A DNA stretch of 64,000 nt, from positions 15,129,379-15,193,378 of the forward strand of contig NC_064771.1 in assembly GCF_011397635.1 (NCBI RefSeq). The letters run 5' to 3'. Positions 17,401 to 59,513 of the stretch are shown here, piece after piece. Source of the DNA: Epinephelus fuscoguttatus. Its lineage: Eukaryota > Chordata > Actinopteri > Perciformes > Serranidae. Each line of letters begins with the position of its first letter. The stretch's first letter is position 1. The notes under the pieces are model-generated. The model had not been told where the DNA came from. It saw only the letters and a list, made by a program, of their open reading frames with translations, and made no database searches. The position numbers were made by a program, and so were the translations under genes.

Positions 17401-20400
17401 TTGACCAAAGTTGATGAGCAGTGATTGACCTGATTGAGAGCTGCGTTTTGAGACTCCTCGACTCTGATTGGTTGTTGGCATTCATGTGCAGCGGATTATT
17501 TTAAATGTAATTAGAAGTAGTAGGAGGCAGAGGAACATGACTTTTATTCACAGATTATCTGTCTCGTTTAGTGCTGTGTGAATATAGTGACAGTTTCTGC
17601 AAATATAAGAAAATATATATTTTTTTAAGTTACAAATTACAGCTTTAATATCATCTGTTGACACAGATATATTTTCCATCCTTTCCTTTAGAGCATCGTT
17701 GCTGAAAACTGCCATCAAATCCAAAAACCACATCCTGAGGCACCTCAATCAGGTGCTAAACATCAGCTTCTTGCTGATAGCCAGTACAAACAGTGAAGAG
17801 CATCTTCCCATCCAGGAGAAGCCCATCAGATGCCATGGCATAACCAGCTGGAACAGATTGCTCCAAAAAGACTCCCTGAACCTGACATGTGTCCTGGATA
17901 ACTCAAGTCCTTATGTTTTAGAACAAGGCTGGACGCTGAGCGTTGCTGTATTCCCTCTGTCCTATCCTCCCACTGCAGGGGGGGGAAGCTCCTCCACAAA
18001 TTTTTTATTCCCGTTCCACAATCTCCATCCAGGGGAGAAGTTAGAGGTGTCGCTGCCTCTAGCAGCTGCAGGTGACACATCCTTCCCCGTGACAGTGAGC
18101 TGCTCACTCATCTTCTCACTCACAGCTCTCCTGGGAGAGGAGGCTGCAGACCTACCTGGGCTGCAGAGTAGTTGCATCAGTTTGCCCTTGAACACATTGA
18201 CAGTGGATTGGTTGCACGCCTTGCAGGTGAACAGTCCCATAGCCACCCATCAAAAGGCCACGTCTCAATCCAGCAACACAACAGATACCATCCAAGCTTT
18301 TATCAGATCAAACCGGATTAGGTGTGGTGGACGAGGGGAGGGAGGAGAGAGTGCTTCAAAGCCTGAGCGAGAGCAATATTCAGCAAGTTTACGGGTGTTG
18401 TCAGAGTTACTGAGGGATACGCTGGTGTTGAAAAGCTCAGATTTGGATGTGCAGGGGCCAAATGTGGCTCCTCAAAATGTCTGCCTTTCTCTGCTGGAGT
18501 GGCTGTTCTGTGAAGGTTGTGGAGGAGTGAAGATGGGACATCAAAGAGACAATATTACACTCAGCACCTCAGTGGTCCATGCTCGAGCTCCAAATGGACA
18601 CACTGTCAAACTGACTGCAAAAGAGGTAAAGAATGATCTAATGTCAGATTGGTAGTTTATTTTATCTTTGATTATTTGACGAAAACAGATGAGAGTTGTT
18701 TCTTTGTTGTCCAGGTGAATGTAGGGGAGGAGAGCATGAGGAAGGAGGAGTCCCTGGCCACAGTGGAGGTTCAGGTTGAGAGCTTGTCTATTGCAGCAGT
18801 GTGTGGACTGCACCATGCTGTGCTGCGCCGGATACAGGTACAAACACTGACTACCTGCTTCTCCAGCATTTTCAGAGAAACTTGAATGTTGTCCAACATG
18901 TTTGTTATGCTTGACTTCAGAAATGAAATGATATTATACTTCATATCCCAATCATAGTGACCAGAATCATTATATGAAATGTGAATCAATGTTAAAGAGA
19001 GCCTGTCTTTGAAATACTTGCTTTAGTGTCTGTGTCACTATTGATGGGGACAACGGACTAGTAGCATTACTGGGTTTGCATGGCCACTCTGTTAATGGCC
19101 CGTACACATGCCCCGTTTTCTGGGCCCTCAAATCCATTACGTGTGGAAGACGCACTCAAAAGCGAAAGTGACACCGTCTCAACTCCCAGGTGTTCCAAAG
19201 GGCCTTTAAAGTTCAACTTTTGGTTCAACTTTTGCAACACACACTGCATGTCATGTGATGAGGAACAACCAATCACAGCTGGCAGACATCTTTCCTTTCT
19301 TTGAAAACTATCAGTCCAAGGTCAATATGGAGGAGAAGTTGATCATGTTATCGCAGGGATACCCAAAGCTTTACATCTGATCAGCAGATAAGTAAGATTA
19401 GAGTTAGATGGAGTAGAGTAAGATAACTTTTCTCGTAAGTAGACCATGATACAGTGCTGGCTATAGTTGCTTGGCAACTTCAGACACAGCCTGCCTCTGC
19501 TCTTGAAAGTTGGGGCACCCAGCGTCACCCAGTGTTTTCCAGGCAGTTAAAGAGTAACGTAACGTAAGTAATGCAACACAGCCCCAACAAAAGAACAGCA
19601 AAATAAACCCAAGTTTCATGCTGTACCCTACGAGTTTTTCAAAGTGCGGTAACCAAATCCATCTTTAATGATAATTAAAATTTGATACAGTAATGCTAAC
19701 CGTCGGGAATTGTACCGTGGCTTATCTTGAAACCTGTAAGTTTCATCCTTACTTGACACTCTGGGTGTAACGGTACGATCTGGATCAATATAGCGAATTC
19801 AGTGATCATTGATTCAGTATCACCAATACAAAGAGAAAACAGATACATATTGTCATCTTTAAGATATGCCTTTATTTTGAAATTCCCATGGCATGTTTCT
19901 GTCATCAGTTCTTTCCAAACACTTCCCTGTCCTAAACATTCAGGCAGTGCTATCGGCCTAGCACCAGACAGATAATGGTAAGCAGCCAAGAAGAGACAAA
20001 AAGGATATTAGTTGATATCGTCTCATGACGATCGCAGGCCCCTGAATTCGATCGGATCAAAATTGTACTGTGGCAGAACGTTGCGATATCAGCAAATATC
20101 ACATTGTTGTCTAAAGACTTCATTTAATAACGTATCCTGAAGAAACTAGTGATTTACACGCCTAGTTGACACAGATGTTATGGATGTTTTTGATGAAGTA
20201 CAATCCAGATCAAGGTTGATATTTCTTGTCTTCCTTGTCTCTTATTGCAAACTCAGCTGTCATCGCTTATGGAAAACTGCTGCAATCTCAGTCTCAAGTG
20301 CACACTACAGCATTAGTCACACAATCAAACTTTTATTATTTTCAGACTAACAACTACAGCAGACTCTCCCAGACAGACGTGACTCAGATGGTCTCACCAG

Positions 20401-31034: not shown

Positions 31035-34000
31035 TGCAGGCAACAAGGATAAAGAGCATCTCAGGGCAGAGAGAAAATAGTGCATTCCGTTGCTGTCCAC
31101 CTAAAATAGTTTAATATCTAAATTCATGCTCTACCTCATAACAGCTGACCCTCTTTTATCACTAACCCATTTACTACATTTGTACTCACTTTAAAATAGA
31201 AAGCCAACACGACTCCTCTGGACTAAATGGAACACAAAACATAGATGGTAATTTATGTATAAAGACACAGGTGACATGAGGGAGGACAAAGAGCCCACCT
31301 GTCTCCGCACACACTCCTATTGTACTTAAATCCTTAGAGAGTCCTCTGCCAGTTGGATCCTCCCTTCTCTTCCCTTCATCTCCTTTAATCATCATGTTGA
31401 ACCCAGAGATATATTTACACAAGCACTAAAGAATGTTGAGGTACTAGCATGGAAGAATTTATCACTTTTGTCCCACTTCAGCATTTCACCTACAATAGAT
31501 TTCTCTCTTAACCAGTTTGTTTCCTTGATTTGCAGCAGCACATCAGCGCTGACTGATGTGCTGGGGGTAACCGGGTTAGATTAGTGGGTTAGAGTGGGAC
31601 CCTGAGGGGCAGAAGCTTTGGCCCCAGGTGAGAGGCAGCTTGGGTTTCTGAAAGCAGACTCCCCCCCTCGCCTTCCAGGAACAGGGGCCAACTTCATCAA
31701 TAATTCAACACACCTCAACTCACCACTCGCCGCAGCAGGATGGTATGGTTGTGTGTGGGCGAGTGTGTCGGAGGAAGATAAAGCTTTTGTTTGTGCAGAA
31801 CAAGTGTAGGAAGAGAGAGGGGGGAAGAAAGAGAGACAGGCAGTAACAGAAAAAAATGTGAGAAAGAATTTCTGTCTGTGCATACAAGTCGTACATGAAG
31901 CTGCTCTTTATACCGTATGCGTGTTATACTGCACCACATCTTTCCTTCCCTTCAACCAATCCGTTTACAGTGCTCCCAGTCGTTTGGTTTCTGCCTGGAG
32001 CTCTCACTGCTACCCAGGAACAATGAGCAGGGAGAGATTCAGTTACAGCACCCGGGGCTGAAGTAACTCGACCCTGCAGACAAGAATCTGCAGCCTGCAG
32101 ATGGGTGTCATGGCCAAGTATGCTGACAAGCAATGTTGGTGTATGCTAATCCGTCCCAAATCCAGTTTCAAATCAGACCAGCAAACCATTTCGACCATCA
32201 GCAGTTGAACACTTGTCCAAGTCCGTCTGGTGCACATTGGCTAGATGAAACATGATCGTCACAATTACAGTTGTTCTAGTTTTTACACTGATCAAAGAAA
32301 TTCAACCTTGTATTCGAGAGGGGAAAAAAACAACAACAACTTTGAAGCCAATGTGGCACAGGCATAATCCATCAGTATAGTAGTCTGGTGTCGTGCCTGC
32401 ATGCTGATCAAATAACGCACCCCAACCGCCCTGTCACAAGACCGAAGAGTAAATACATAATACAGTATCAACAGAGCATTACTGCACAGCATATAGGTTA
32501 CAGGCAGCTGTTTCTGTAAGCCCAAGGGGCAAAAGCGTAGAGTGTTAACACCATTACCCAACAAAGCCAGGAGGAACATTTGAGAAGGAATGAAAGGGGA
32601 TTTTTGAAAAGATCATTTATAATAGATTATTTGGTAAAACTTTCTATTATATGCGCAGCATTTTATGACGAGGTATCCACCATTACAGGAATACAACACT
32701 TTCTCTGCCAGCATTAAAATCCAGTCATGTAAAACTATGTGCAAATTGTTGAGAAATCTATTTCGGTAGTAATTCCCAACATGGGTGCACAATAAATCTG
32801 TTATCTGAGCAAACCACTCGCCAGTGCAAGACTTAATACCGACAGTAGACTAAGCTAAATCAATTGCAGCCCTAAAACAAATGACGTATCTGTCTCAGGT
32901 CTCTCAGATGAGGCTGATAGTCTCCTGTATCAGCCTCATCTATCTTGTTTTCTTGGAAAGATGCAGCTATCTAATGTGATGCTGGTGCATGGTGATTGCA
33001 GACTACATTACCCATAATTACCATGCATCCCTTATCAGTTGTCAATCATTAGAGTGGCCTGTACCCTTAACCAGCATGCCCACAAGTCAATGTACTTCCT
33101 GTGAATTGTAAGCTCAGTTTTCCGGGGGGTGTATCAGTGCTCAATATGTACTGTATAGTAGTAGTAACTGTAGTAGTTGTAGTATTTGTTGCCCCTCTGC
33201 TTTATTATGTATGTGTGTAGGTCAGTGTGTGTCAGCAAAAGGCTCATGTGACCACACTCAGTGGCACATAAGGTCAGCCTTCAGCCATTTAATTAGGCAC
33301 GTGGGATCCTGGACTTTAAGGAACCCAGGAAGCTGCAAGAGCTGCAGCTTGTGCATGCATGCAAGGTTTCAGGGCAAAATCTCCTGCTGATGTTATCCTT
33401 ACCTTGTCTTATGGAGACATATCGCCCATTGGCGGCCATCAGAACCACCTGTGGGTGGCTCTCTTCTAGGTCAAACAGTTCATCTTTGCCTGGCTTGGAG
33501 CACCGTCCAGACCTCAGGGTGCCTGTAGGCCCCATGGGAGACAAATACTTCCCCTCACAGTCTTTAAAGGCAAGCTTTCCACACTTCAGCTCCAGCGTGT
33601 AGGCTGTGGCCCTCCCACTCTGCGTCAAGAGCTTCCCCTCATTGCTGAGGAAGCGGCTGTCGCAGGTCTTAAGGCAGTACTTCCCATCCAGGTAGACAAG
33701 GGTCAGGAGCGCTGCCACACCCCAGGGAATGTTCATATCCACAGCAATTTCCCCATCCTCCATGGAGAGGTGGGCGTAACGCTTGCGGGCCACAGACAGC
33801 AGGTTGGCCTGCGGATGTAGCGCCAGGTGCACTGCCCACAGCTCAGCATCTGTGATCAGCTGGGCAAAGCAGGACAGGTAGTCCCGAGAGCCCCCGAAGA
33901 AGCGGAGATGTTGCTCGGACTGCAGGGCCCAGCGACCATCTGATTGAGCCACGATGAGGAAGCGGCAGTCTGAATTTTGCCCATCCGCCTCGCAGGTGAC

Positions 34001-35177
34001 TTTGCCGTCCTTGTCAGAGGCCAGGTAGCGTCCCAGGTGGCTGCGCAAGTAGACCACCTGGGTGTCCTGAGAGTCCTGCTCTAGAGTCCATATCTGCTTC
34101 TTCTTCATGCTGGGTGCTGATGCATTCACCTGAGACAAGGAAATGTTCCAACACAGAGCATGAAGGCTTTTCATCCTTAGTCTTTGGTTCTATATACAAC
34201 AAACCTGACAAGTTCATACCATACAGTGTGCAGCCCTGTACAGACACCAAAAAAGTTACCAATATGCAGGCTGTTCTCATGCACTGTTCGAAAAGCAGTG
34301 AGTGCACCACAATTTGAAGATAACCTACGTTATCATGAGGCAGTAATTTGTGTAAAACCCATATAATCGGGATGGTTGCAATCTGACAGTAGGACTGAGT
34401 GTTGGTACTTGATACCTTTAAGGTATCGAACAAAATAACCCAATATTGAAACTACTCCAGTCAAATGATACTTGCATTCAATCCTATTCCAAGATCTAGA
34501 AAAAAATTACTATATGTATGGTTTTGTTCACAACCAATCACCACAAGCATTCTTCTATTTAATGCGAAATGCGATTGGCCCACTACTCTACCAGCTACAA
34601 CCCACACAGTCTGTAGTGCGGTTAAGTTGAAACGAAGTTGGGAGTTCAACCAGAAAATTAAGTATTGTACTGGTATCGGTATCACTTTAAGGGTACAAGA
34701 ATTGGTATTTGAATTTTAATTTTCTAGATGACACCCAGCCGTAGAGAGGAGTAAAGAAGGAAGTAGTATGGAGACCGAAAGTCTGCGTAAGGTGTTCGAG
34801 TGGGGTGGTGGATGGATCAAACAACAGAGGACTTTCCCTCAGGAAACCAGCTTTCGGAACTGAAACCAAGTGAACTTTTTTTTTTTTGTTATTTTAAGGT
34901 TCTTTGTCACTGTGTTTCTTTTCATAAACCTAATGTATGTTACTGTACTTTAGTAAGTAACTTTACGTTAAGTTTCTAACATCATTTGTGGAGCTCTAAT
35001 TTGTTACTTATATGAATGGTTGTATGAGAATACCTTGCAGTTTGTTATAGTTCTGCTTTTAGAATTTGCATGACATGTTTGTACCTTAAAGCCAAAGGCC
35101 TCAGCAGTGAGGTAGCGACCCTCATGGTTGATAAGACCAAACTGCAACTTCAAGGGACGGTTCCCGTTAGCAGGCAT
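24583..35177 (-). CDS. fscn2: Retinal fascin (fascin-2), actin-bundling protein
   Basis: Six coding exons: 35177-35085, 34129-33403, 26494-26338, 25338-25217, 25113-24946 and 24788-24583. All have GT/AG borders and joined phases, giving 490 residues (human FSCN1/FSCN2 about 492-493). Four beta-trefoil repeats run the whole length. Diagnostic stretches are [96 protein letters not shown] and the C-terminus SALWEY. S39, regulated by PKC in fascin-1, corresponds here to the serine of [10 protein letters not shown]. Fascins crosslink parallel actin bundles; FSCN2 is known from photoreceptors and hair-cell stereocilia. FSCN2 rather than FSCN1 is inferred partly from the neighbour faap100; the teleost a/b paralogue is undecided. 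The first intron (34130-35084) splits what is one first exon in mammals. The fifth exon has a weak donor (GTCAGG) but the expected length of 168. Confidence 0.95.
25440..25605 (-). repeat. Fish repeat with AGTGGTGGAAA start (copy 2, inverted)
   Basis: CTAAGTACTGTACTTGAGTA, ACGTACTTAGTTGA and CCACCATTG are the reverse complement of the family at 8500-8645. Located in fscn2 intron 3. Confidence 0.65.
25965..26215 (+). repeat. Fish interspersed repeat in fscn2 intron 3
   Basis: It contains GAGCTGTACGCGACATTCAG, GGCTGACCCGCTGGCTGACA, TAGCTACTCGTGGGATAAAC and TGCTGCTATGTTAATGCTCT. The last motif is shared, for 28 identical bases, with 23264-23291. Non-coding. Confidence 0.6.
28130..29420. repeat. 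Repeat region built of TCTTGGTCTCA motifs
   Basis: TCTTGGTCTCAAGACC, TCTTGGTCTTGACTTGGTCT, TTGGTCTTGGTCTCATGACC and similar words recur, and two segments (28780-28860 and 29230-29300) share GGAGTGC-TATGGTTTGCATG. This is a degenerate simple-motif repeat seen widely in teleosts. The minus-strand ORF 29284-29514 lies inside it and is not credited as a gene. Confidence 0.6.
30764..30830. repeat. (GT)n microsatellite
   Basis: About 67 bases of TG repeat with one TATG interruption. Confidence 0.97.
30992..31028. repeat. (CA)n microsatellite
   Basis: Perfect CA run of 37 bases, about 160 bases from a (GT)n run, so the two could pair as a long-range inverted repeat. Confidence 0.97.
34267..35040 (+). 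mobile_element. DNA-transposon-like element filling fscn2 intron 1, itself interrupted
   Basis: CAGGCTGTTCTCATGCACTG at the left is imperfectly inverse to TGTATGAGAATACCTTGCAG at the right. The interior GAGTAAAGAAGGAAGTA, GGGGTGGTGGATGG, AGAGGACTTTCCC, GTGTTTCTTTTC.TAAACCTAA and ACTTTACGTTAAG matches 40963-41347 in the same orientation. A second repeat (about 34380-34725, with GTATCGGTATCACTTTAAGG) has inserted into this copy. No coding capacity. Confidence 0.65.
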
Positions 35178-51990: not shown

Positions 51991-52279
51991 ACAGAAATTG
52001 TGCATTTCCACTGCATGGTACAGCTTCATTTGACTTGACTCGACCATAGGCTGTATAAAGTAATGGACGTAGCTACTGTGACGTCACCCATTGGTTTTAG
52101 ACTGCTGTTTGGAAGCCTTGAGTTTGGCATTTCACTCGTTGCGATTCTGATTTTTAGAGCCAAAACTGACCGTATTTGGTCGAGGAGGTGGAGCTGTAGA
52201 TAAGCAAGAGTTGGATCTGACTTGTAAACTGTAGCAAGGCCTCACTGACAATCTGTCATTTAAGTGGCCCCTCCCTTAA

Positions 52280-52613
52280 AGGAATACTCTGACGATTTGG
52301 GAGTTATGCCCTTTTTCTATCATTTTCATATTGAGACAACATGATCGATATCTTTCTTGTGTCCGTACGTCCAGTGGCTGGGTCTTAGCGGTTAGCATTG
52401 TGGCTTAGCTTAGCGAATACAATTGAAGTCTATACAGGGTCAGTAGCCTACGGTAAAAGTGAACAAATAAACGTTACAGAAACCCTGAAGCTGGCATTTC
52501 TGCACGTGCATTTAAAATAAACATGTTTAAACATTAATTCGAAAAACGAGAGTCCTTTTTGGTCGCTTTAGAAGAAGTTTGATACACGGAACTATAGTGT
52601 GTTTACGCCCTGC
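52280..52613 (+). repeat. Left terminal inverted repeat of element C
   Basis: Imperfect inverse of 53271-53603, aligning from the outermost AGGAATACTC to GTGTGTTTAC-CCTGC. The pairing would make a hairpin with arms of about 333 bases if transcribed through. Confidence 0.9.
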
Positions 52614-52769
52614 GCAAAGGAATACACCAGTGAGCAACAGCTGCAGCTGGCTCTGGGACAGGTATGCTAGGTCACTCGGTAAACGAAGAGACGACACGGA
52701 CCATATTACTCACTCCACTGAAAGATGTCCATCAGCTCCTGCAGGCCTGGGTGTTTTTTCCAGTTTATC

Positions 52770-53171
52770 TTAGGAACATGAAAAAAAAGTTCCAATCATG
52801 CCAGGATTAGTGATTGCTACAAAGTTTTCACTTCTTGTGATGCACTCTCTGTGGTGGTTCCCCTCCTGATGATATATCTGTAGCCTCCCCAACGATGGTA
52901 GCACCGAATCGCATTCTGTGCAGAAAAATGATTCCACCTCCGTATGCATAGGTTGGCAAGCCCCGCAGCTACACCCCCAGTCCTCCCCTGACCTCCGTCT
53001 CCCCTCGGCCCCTTGCTGTTCCGTTGCCTCAGAGGATTCAGCCTCTCTTCTCGCCTGCTCAGCATCCAACACCTGGAGTTCCTCATCTGTATACTCTGGC
53101 TCAAACAGGTATGGCTCTGGATCTGTGTCCGCTACAAGAAACTCTTCAAAATCGCGTTCAAAGTAGTCCAT
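52770..53171 (-). CDS. P2X7 C-terminal (ballast) zinc-domain protein, element-borne
   Basis: A 133-residue ORF starting MDYFERDFEEF. The N-terminal part is acidic (YLFEPEYTDEELQVLDAEQA) like many fish proteins labelled 'P2X purinoceptor 7-like'. Residues 65-90 hold WGCSCGACQPM and FFCTECDSV. Residues 110-118 read CITRSENFV. These correspond to WCQCGSC, the LCCRK pair and CITTSELF of the human P2RX7 cytoplasmic ballast, which binds zinc and guanine nucleotide. Visible metal ligands are C67, C69, C72, C84, C87 and C110; the usual CC pair is now C-x-x-C. There are no channel segments. The C-terminus stops soon after NPGMIG, shorter than the family, so it may be truncated or continue by splicing into 52700. 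It lies between the inverted repeats of element C, with no other ORF. Role unknown; a DNA- or RNA-binding accessory function is possible but not shown. Confidence 0.7.
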   Translation of the reverse strand: MDYFERDFEEFLVADTDPEPYLFEPEYTDEELQVLDAEQARREAESSEATEQQGAEGRRRSGEDWGCSCGACQPMHTEVESFFCTECDSVLPSLGRLQIYHQEGNHHRECITRSENFVAITNPGMIGTFFSCS

Positions 53172-53270
53172 TGCAGCTACTATAGTCCGGAGATATCGTT
53201 AGGCTGAATAAACAACTGAGTTCTGTTTACAGGCTACGTCTGTGCCTGTGCCTGTGCGCGGATCACAGTG

Positions 53271-53603
53271 CAGGATGTAAACACACTATACTTCCATGTA
53301 TCAAACTTCTTCTAAAACGACTAAAAAGGACTCTCGTTTTTCAAATTAATGTTTAAATATGTTTATTTTAAATGCACGTGCAGAAATGCCAGCTTCAGGG
53401 TTTCTGTACGTTTATTTGTTCACTTTTACCAAGTAGGCTACTGACCCCCTATAGACTTCAATTGTATTCGCTAAGCTAAGCCGCAATGCTAACCACTAAG
53501 ACCCAGCCACTGGACGTACAGACACAAAAAAGATATCGATCATGTTGTCTCACTATGAAAATGATAGAGAAAGAGCATAACTCCAAAATTGTCGGAGTAT
53601 TCT
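53271..53603 (-). repeat. Right terminal inverted repeat of element C
   Basis: Partner of 52280-52613. The outer end is GAGTATTCT, then TTTA. Confidence 0.9.
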
Positions 53604-54350
53604 TTTATGTGTAGCTGTAAGGCTTAATAAAATGTAAATGAATGAGTTACATGAAAATTCAGCCCTCGTACAATTGGCATAAATGTTGAAATTAGCTGTT
53701 TTGGAGCAAGCCGCAAGTGGGCATTTAGGGAACTGCAGTTTTTGGCACTTGCACGTTGGCTTCATTTTTCAGCCCTGAAGGCTGCCGCTTGAACTTGACT
53801 GAAGTCATTTGTTGCACCAGGTTCTTTTCTCTAATTCGTTGCCCACTGCAGATAGTACCCCCTCTCTGTAAGCGGGATTCTACGCTGATCGCTAGCTACG
53901 CCACATGAAACTGGCGTAACATCATTTTCAATGCAACTCTCACAAGAGAGGAAATGGCAAAGTGTATATAGTGTACAGAGTGGTGTATGGTGTAGTTTTG
54001 TGGGCTGCCAATTTTAAAAATCTGGGGCGAGTGAATGAAAAAATCGTTGTTGCTATTAATGTAGCCTAGCTATTTAAAAATGGGGCATTTGCGCAGGATG
54101 TCCTGTGTTACGCAAGTAACCATTCTAGTAACGACTCTCTCTGACCAATCAGTTGTCTGCAGAACATATGGATGCTCCTTTCTCTTTTATTATGTAAAAC
54201 ACTGAATTGCTGTGTGGAGGAATTGTGCTATCGAAATACATTTGCTATTGCTATTGCAGTGTTTGAAATCCACCTTCTAATGTCAGCTCAGCTTGCTTGG
54301 AACCTCCACTGAAGTGGTACTAGATAAAAGTACCAAGTACCAGGTACTCA

Positions 54351-58313: not shown

Positions 58314-59513
58314 ATGGGGGTGAGGGCAGCAGGAACTGTTTTGTGGGCCATCTTTCTGGTGCTGTTTCTTGTGTCAGGTACAGGTCTGCATCACACCATT
58401 GCGGTTTGGATATTCAACTCAAAGTCCCAAGAGTGTTAATGACGCCTGTGCATTTTGTGTTTTATTTCAGTTCAACCTTGGTGCGTGACCTACGAACACA
58501 GAGAAACCTGTGGCTTAAAGGGCTCATCTGTAGAGTTTCCCTGCTCCTATCCCAGTAATAGTCAGATATTCTCAATACTGGGGTGGTCAAAAAAATTGCA
58601 ACCTAACATGAGACCTAAGCCCTTGAATCAGACGTCAGCTTATTCGTTTCGTATGAACTACCTTCAGCGTGGAAAAAATGACTGCAGCATGACACTTAGA
58701 GGCTTAAAAAAGACTGACGCATCCATCTATTATTTTGTTTACAATTTTAGAAAAGTTACAGGCGATATTGTGACGTGTAAAGGTCTCCCTGGTGTGAAAC
58801 TTAACATTTTTACATCTCCTGTGAGCATCCGGAAGCGTGTTAGTGGCCAGCATGTGTCTGTTACAAATCTGACATTGATGGAGGGTCAGAGGATAACACT
58901 GACTTGTGTCCCCACCTGCGCTTATCTGAACTCCAACCCAGGCTACATCTGGTACAAGAACAACCTGCAATTAAATGGCAGCGCAAACTCGTGCATGTCT
59001 TTGGACCCAATCAGTGAGGAGGATATGGGCAGTTATGTCTGCGCCATGATTGGCTATGAGGACCTCCCCTCGCGTGCTGTCAATCTCAAAGTCCATAAAG
59101 CACCCAGAAACACTGTGGTGTCTGAAATCCCTGACGGTGGATCGCAGACGGACAGCGTCCTGACTCAGACACGTGGCTATGATGCTCAGAACTCCACGGA
59201 CCAAATCGACAACGTTTACCTGGAACCCAAAGGTAAAACCATGTTTACATTCTCTATAACACTTGCTGCCGGTGTTTGCGTCGGATGGGTAATTGCAGTA
59301 ACAGTGACTATATTAGTTATCAAAGTAAAGAAGAGGAAAAGGAGATGTGCTGATTCAGCTCCCAGGCCTCCAAACCCTAACGGTGACATCTACATGGCTC
59401 TGGATATCAAATCCATGTCTGATGAATATGACACACTGGACACAAACAGACGCAGCTCAGCTGAGGACACTATTTATGAGAACGTATGTCAACCTGGAAA
59501 CTCCCTGAGATGA
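58314..59513 (+). CDS. Siglec/CD22-like immunoglobulin receptor with YxxL tail
   Basis: Exon 1 (58314-58377) encodes a signal peptide; a 93-base intron (GTACAG...TTTCAG) follows; exon 2 (58471-59513) encodes the rest, total 368 residues. A V-set domain (about 25-130) has C46 and C93; C93 sits in the E strand (NDCSMTLRGL), giving the intra-sheet B-E disulfide of siglecs, and the F strand has no cysteine. The end CKGLPGVKLNI and the C2-set motifs YIWYKNN and YVCAMIGYEDLPSRAV match teleost 'CD22-like' proteins. The C2 domain (about 145-228) pairs C167 with C212. A membrane helix spans about 280-305, followed by KVKKRKRR. The tail carries YMAL (Y329), YDTL (Y341) and YENV (Y357). The F-strand arginine that binds sialic acid is replaced by V in IYYFVYNF. 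This is a cell-surface immune-type receptor; ligand unknown. The start is the first ATG giving a signal peptide. Having V, C2, membrane and tail in one exon is unusual. Confidence 0.78.

Follow-up and report, generated by a model that had tools for sequence, protein, structure and literature searches.

The element at 52280-53604 of the window (the whole 64,000-nucleotide stretch of Epinephelus fuscoguttatus DNA analyzed here) can almost certainly be assigned to the Kolobok superfamily, as a non-autonomous DNA transposon with an internal deletion that belongs to the Kol0 type, which encodes the protein KolX. This classification follows from dispersed copies bounded by the same repeats, their TTAA flanks and long relatives bearing a THAP transposase together with KolX. 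The ballast ORF of the element looks like KolX, an accessory protein native to Kol0-type Kolobok elements, rather than captured cargo. The initial annotation had regarded at least some stand-alone ballast copies as cargo of transposons; in this genome, many such ORFs indeed lie in or beside transposons, whereas the domain itself appears to be native KolX.

With its ends set by repeat symmetry, the element measures 1325 bp (Table 1). The inverted repeats can be aligned over 52277-52613 and 53607-53270 with 315 of 339 alignment columns being identical (92.9%), resulting in terminal repeats of 334 and 335 bp. Hence, the inverted repeats initially described around the ORF, at a length given as 333 bp, are borne out, and the left end as well as the left TTAA are retained, while repeat symmetry places the right end at 53604 instead of 53603 and the right flank reads TTAT instead of TTTA. 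Within the window, only this one copy of the element is present. Elsewhere in the window, exons of host genes are found at 17699-18655 (Fanconi anaemia-associated, FANCAA), 33293-34174 (fascin) and 58455-59513 (immunoglobulin-domain protein).

TABLE 1. Features of the short KolX-bearing element and their positions in the window; a slash marks the exon border.
Feature	Position	Strand	Basis
Left target-site copy, TTAA	52276..52279		Sequence; most sister copies have TTAA in the same place
Left terminal inverted repeat, starting with AGGAATACTC (5'-RR)	52280..52613	+	Repeat alignment; 455 ends genome-wide versus 0 reversed controls
GT of the putative splice donor GA/GTGAGT, end of KolX exon 1	52712..52713	-	Read from the sequence
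133-aa ORF, KolX exon 1 with shifted end, first half of a P2X7-type ballast	52770..53171	-	ORF, profile scores, genome search
A-run (T-run on the coding strand) shifting the frame	52781..52788	-	Alignment of eight copies
Right terminal inverted repeat, ending with GAGTATTCTT (YY-3')	53270..53604	-	Repeat alignment; copy alignment
Right target-site copy, TTAT (TTAA with a single change)	53605..53608		Sequence; copy alignment

The genome to which the window belongs (1.047 Gb in 26 contigs) was searched with both the repeat and the ORF, as had been proposed with the initial annotation. The left repeat gave 573 candidates, and all 40 that were scored proved to be matches. Repeats on both sides together with the ORF are found in all eight repeat loci returned, one of them being the window copy, with copy lengths between 1287 and 1455 bp, the value for L004 being uncertain due to the loss of its right outer end. 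Left ends open with AG or AA in all eight cases (5'-RR), and right ends close with CT or TT (YY-3') in seven of eight, the remaining one being the lost end of L004. Searching with the ORF resulted in at least 192 matches (5602 candidates, of which 150 were scored; 150 places were listed). Among the 30 best ORF loci (L010-L039, with L010 being the window copy and some others coinciding with L002-L008), a piece of the window-type repeat is present on both sides in 27 and both outer ends in 20. TTAA target-site duplications flank 14 of these 20 two-ended copies on both sides and six on one side, the window copy with TTAA and TTAT belonging to the latter. Moreover, a 33-base end pattern with up to three mismatches identified 455 ends (236 + 219), compared with none (0 + 0) for the backwards pattern. 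A listed ORF match within 2.5 kb is located inside in 52 of 100 listed ends and outside in none of them, the other 48 being without any listed match. Such recurrence of repeat and ORF together across the genome is not due to chance. The claim of a mobile element is thus corroborated by dispersed repeats with TTAA duplications, and neither ballast ORFs that never lie between these repeats nor repeats representing only a local duplication, the two outcomes initially named as speaking against it, were encountered.

Besides these short copies, one end pair is separated by about 461 bp (C8:2510916), a distance that could not accommodate both repeats in full and even less the ORF. Window-type ends that enclose an ORF match at a spacing of about 8.5 kb (C8:46716178-46724661) possibly represent a second long copy; none of the listed matches to the transposase exon of the long relatives falls there. 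In 41 of the 150 listed ORF places, for example, C3:48779900, the match stops near residue 48 at an identity of 80-95%, which suggests another amplified deletion derivative.

The minus-strand ORF of the window copy lies between the terminal inverted repeats and bears the cysteine motifs initially quoted for it. With the Pfam model P2RX7_C (PF20478, curated cut-off of 23.5 bits), however, it only reaches 10.9 bits (E 0.41) and is outscored by the NOB1 Zn-ribbon (E 9e-4), both values being below cut-off. When compared with human P2X7, 16 of 2000 shuffles score as high as the ORF, with two other P2X7 chains 88 and 10 of 2000, respectively, and a profile of the three chains did not distinguish it from shuffles; this mammalian comparison is accordingly too weak for a decision. 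A PDB search yielded a single chance-like match (E 0.89), and a single-sequence structure prediction with a mean pLDDT of 48.5 was set aside. As the match of the window copy alone is weak, the ballast identification is based on the family. Five sister copies, picked from 30 fetched ORF loci, score 19.6-22.9 bits with P2RX7_C (E 9e-5 to 9e-4, below cut-off) and lack a NOB1 match, while the short element L006 exceeds the cut-off at 25.5 bits with one stop read through. In long relatives, KolX exon 1 is likewise below 23.5 bits (L070, 21.0; L071, 19.7; L072, 16.1), whereas exon 2 surpasses this value in L078 and L070 (27.5 bits each). In the window copy, the initially proposed ballast match is weak and confined to the first half.

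In an alignment of eight copies, the A-run stretch of the window copy exceeds that of six out of seven sister copies by one base, and in L002 it is one base shorter still than in those six. Due to this frameshift, the final residues of the window ORF differ from those of the family. Sister copies continue beyond the frameshift site into PKINWKKRPRPAGADGQLSVE or a nearby frame, in a stretch where small indels vary among copies, and then reach a donor-like GA/GTGAGT. Inspection by eye of the three minus-strand frames of 52600-53190 did not reveal the PSC and IR motifs of the second ballast half; these are present as exon 2, following exon 1, in L078 and L070, whereas exon 2 is missing from the window copy. 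Contrary to the stand-alone ballast initially assumed, the window copy thus has exon 1 only, about half a ballast and broken; it makes no complete ballast, and exon 1 is kept as a passenger only.

After insertion, the ORF drifts almost neutrally with weak constraint at most. The 30 best ORF copies, with a median divergence from their majority of 3.6%, were chosen by protein similarity, a sample in which conservation is favored. Even so, changes are evenly distributed over codon positions 1, 2 and 3 (160, 147, and 137), and N/S amounts to 0.89 of the neutral expectation, or 0.78 without CpG-like sites; even codon positions and N/S near neutral are indicative of almost free drift. These values, as well as the frameshift in the window copy, make it improbable that the short ORF is a still-working gene whose truncated KolX product, supplied by many short copies, acts in trans, for example, as a regulator of autonomous elements, albeit the matched stretch is free of stops in 21 of the best 30 copies and stop changes account for just 10 of the 307 non-synonymous ones, a fraction of 0.033 that is below the expected 0.051.

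From the same genome, at least 99 matches to PF20478 were obtained (150 of 228 candidates scored); on C16 and C24, exon-1 matches are followed at a distance of about 250 bp by exon-2-like ones. At these two places, the elements L070 + L076 and L071 + L077 (7.3 and 7.1 kb) constitute a related family bounded by TTAA followed by AGGGATAYGCCAAC at one end and GTTGGCGTATCCCT followed by TTAA at the other, with repeats of about 355 bp that show no similarity to those of the window at E 1e-5. Similarity between the two copies amounts to 98% over 4.9 kb and to 94.7% across the KolX end, where L070 is longer by about 430 bp. This family encodes a two-exon KolX and, on the opposite strand, a transposase whose THAP domain scores E 2.7e-17 and in which GDGRSDSPG, TTDRHP, and LEVFH were picked by eye as presumed DDE motifs and H..H..C..H as a presumed H2CH motif; no Pfam model scored above cut-off on the scanned pieces of the DDE core. 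Genome-wide, 52 matches to this transposase exon were obtained.

The initial annotation had suggested looking for longer copies that add a transposase, and L078 (C10, about 8.3 kb) is of this kind. Its two ends are formed by window-type repeats (84 and 93%) with TTAA on either side, and it contains a KolX exon 1 that has acquired indels, an exon 2 that is open and, in opposite orientation, THAP/DDE-type transposase pieces interrupted by stops and indels. In L078 as in L070, the two-exon KolX is convergent with the transposase. As the transposase of L078 is broken, no intact autonomous copy with exactly the window repeats is among those read, whereas an open transposase exon is present in L070, whose repeats differ. 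In addition, L079 (C11) shows one window-type repeat beside THAP and transposase pieces, with no KolX match. A third KolX family is represented by a 1.66-kb element (L072:3199-4866) between arms with TTAA followed by AGGGACAGTTCAGATC (TTAA followed by AGGGACAG).

Hallmarks of Kolobok elements, as given in passages of PMC9587614 and PMC6004289, are TTAA target sites, RR..YY ends and a DDE transposase with THAP and H2CH. The latter is found in the related family and in the window family only as decayed pieces (L078 and L079), and the assignment to Kol0 is based on KolX being encoded beside the transposase in L078 and L070. Speaking against a Kolobok affiliation are the right flank TTAT of the window copy, its lack of a transposase and its profile score below the Pfam cut-off. 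The TTAA target sites would also agree with a piggyBac element, and a passage in PMC9587614 mentions a few piggyBac families with a KolX-like protein lacking most of the ballast cysteines. This alternative is highly improbable, however, since the 5'-RR and YY-3' ends are Kolobok-like and unlike piggyBac, long copies encode a THAP-type transposase and, as judged by eye, the ballast cysteines are kept in KolX here. Capture of a host ballast gene between local inverted duplications without any transposon, as might be thought from the one copy inside the window, is refuted by TTAA-flanked copies on many chromosomes. For the non-autonomous Kolobok element, autonomous relatives would make a transposase that binds the shared repeats, excises the element and then inserts it at TTAA. 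KolX is most likely a putative zinc-binding protein that may act as helper or regulator of transposition.

The host P2RX7 gene is located on C6, with its exon 13 scoring 216 bits for PF20478. Its relation to KolX was analyzed in an unrooted tree of 17 rows, comprising P2RX7 (three rows), window-kind KolX (three) and further ORFs from PF20478 loci (eleven), leaving out loci with stops or shorter matches. In this tree, a split of 100/100 sets the window-kind KolX apart from P2RX7 together with the further ORFs. As this tree is unrooted, has a long P2RX7 branch and shows mostly weak branches inside the group of P2RX7 and other ORFs, it does not allow the statement that P2RX7 nests inside KolX. 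Due to the split, the window family is not a likely donor. The initial suggestion that P2RX7 obtained its C-terminus from such an element has therefore to be modified regarding the family involved, and the general idea has already been published (PMC9587614).

On the P2RX7 side of the tree, the KolX-type ORFs of L041, L043, and L062 (C1, C19, and C8) have in common a left border of TTAA followed by AGCAGCTGTGCGGAAC (TTCA in L062), with unrelated flanks, while its right end did not turn up in the sequence analyzed for the L041-type element. It looks as if some KolX ORFs nearer to P2RX7 are also mobile. A transposase piece within the 1.5-kb flank is found in 9 of 29 PF20478 loci other than P2RX7, compared with 0 of 30 short ORF loci.

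Tentatively, the P2RX7 tail could have been acquired by exon trapping, although we consider this scenario rather doubtful: a Kolobok element of the other KolX lineage (L041 type), in which a single terminal exon preceded by a splice acceptor of the element (perhaps phase 0) comprises the entire ballast, might have inserted in sense orientation into the final intron of a P2X4-like gene, where this exon was then spliced on as the last one. The ORFs of the L041 type resemble P2RX7 exon 13 in being single and open. In a crude acceptor scan (pyrimidine-rich AG upstream of the ballast) over 17 L041-type loci, some of them close copies of each other, a phase-0 candidate was obtained in nine, only phase 1 or 2 in five and none in three, with 11, 8, and 5 candidates in phases 0, 1, and 2, respectively. 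P2RX7 itself has four acceptor candidates across all three phases, two of them in phase 0, and its exon 12 donor AAG/GTGAAG would also be phase 0. The phase-0 pattern is a weak lead on exon capture and not proof.

According to passages in Kojima and Bao (2022, PMC9587614), KolX of Kol0 Kolobok elements has the ballast fold, P2RX7 arose by fusion with KolX and Kolobok-1_XT is a named example of the Kol0 lineage with KolX. Since the link between KolX and P2RX7 is already stated there, the window family is a further, well-documented member of a published kind. Kol0 elements as described in these passages are resembled in TTAA sites, RR..YY ends, DDE-type transposase and a KolX with P2X7 ballast fold, whereas the window copy is short, retains KolX exon 1 only and lacks the transposase. 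Likewise, the Xenopus T2-MITE and XKol elements are short and thought to be mobilized by THAP + DDE Kolobok transposases (PMC6004289); KolX does not occur in the main text of that paper, whereas the window element keeps a KolX piece. With the P2RX7 ballast (PF20478), the first-half cysteines and the CIT motif are shared, and in L070 and L078, KolX agrees in the PSC..IR second half as well, but the window element has neither channel nor second half, has its CC and CIT motifs separated by a long insert and is split off in the tree. Fish nanor-like or stand-alone ZCD proteins (PMC7016195) are, by description, stand-alone ballast ORFs of a similar kind, but the main text of this source has 0 occurrences of 'transpos'. 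Among the papers listed in the literature searches, none other than PMC9587614 was found to join Kolobok and P2X7. Outside the fish genome, no relatives were detected in viral contigs (by protein and three DNA patterns), in genome contigs by protein, or in phages and plasmids by DNA. An archaeal MAG (L009) matched one 21-base pattern, but this match lacks wider similarity to the repeat and was taken as chance.

New here are the window family (judged against the literature), the tree in which it stands apart from P2RX7 as well as from other mobile KolX, and the weak exon-capture lead. In one fish genome, a chain extends from long elements with two-exon KolX and transposase, via a long copy in decay, to verified short, repeat-bounded half-ballast copies numbering in the dozens, beside the host P2RX7, making the published transposon origin of the P2RX7 tail testable by tree and splice phase. 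At the same time, caution is advisable with stand-alone 'P2X7-like' ORFs of fish, which may often be transposon pieces.
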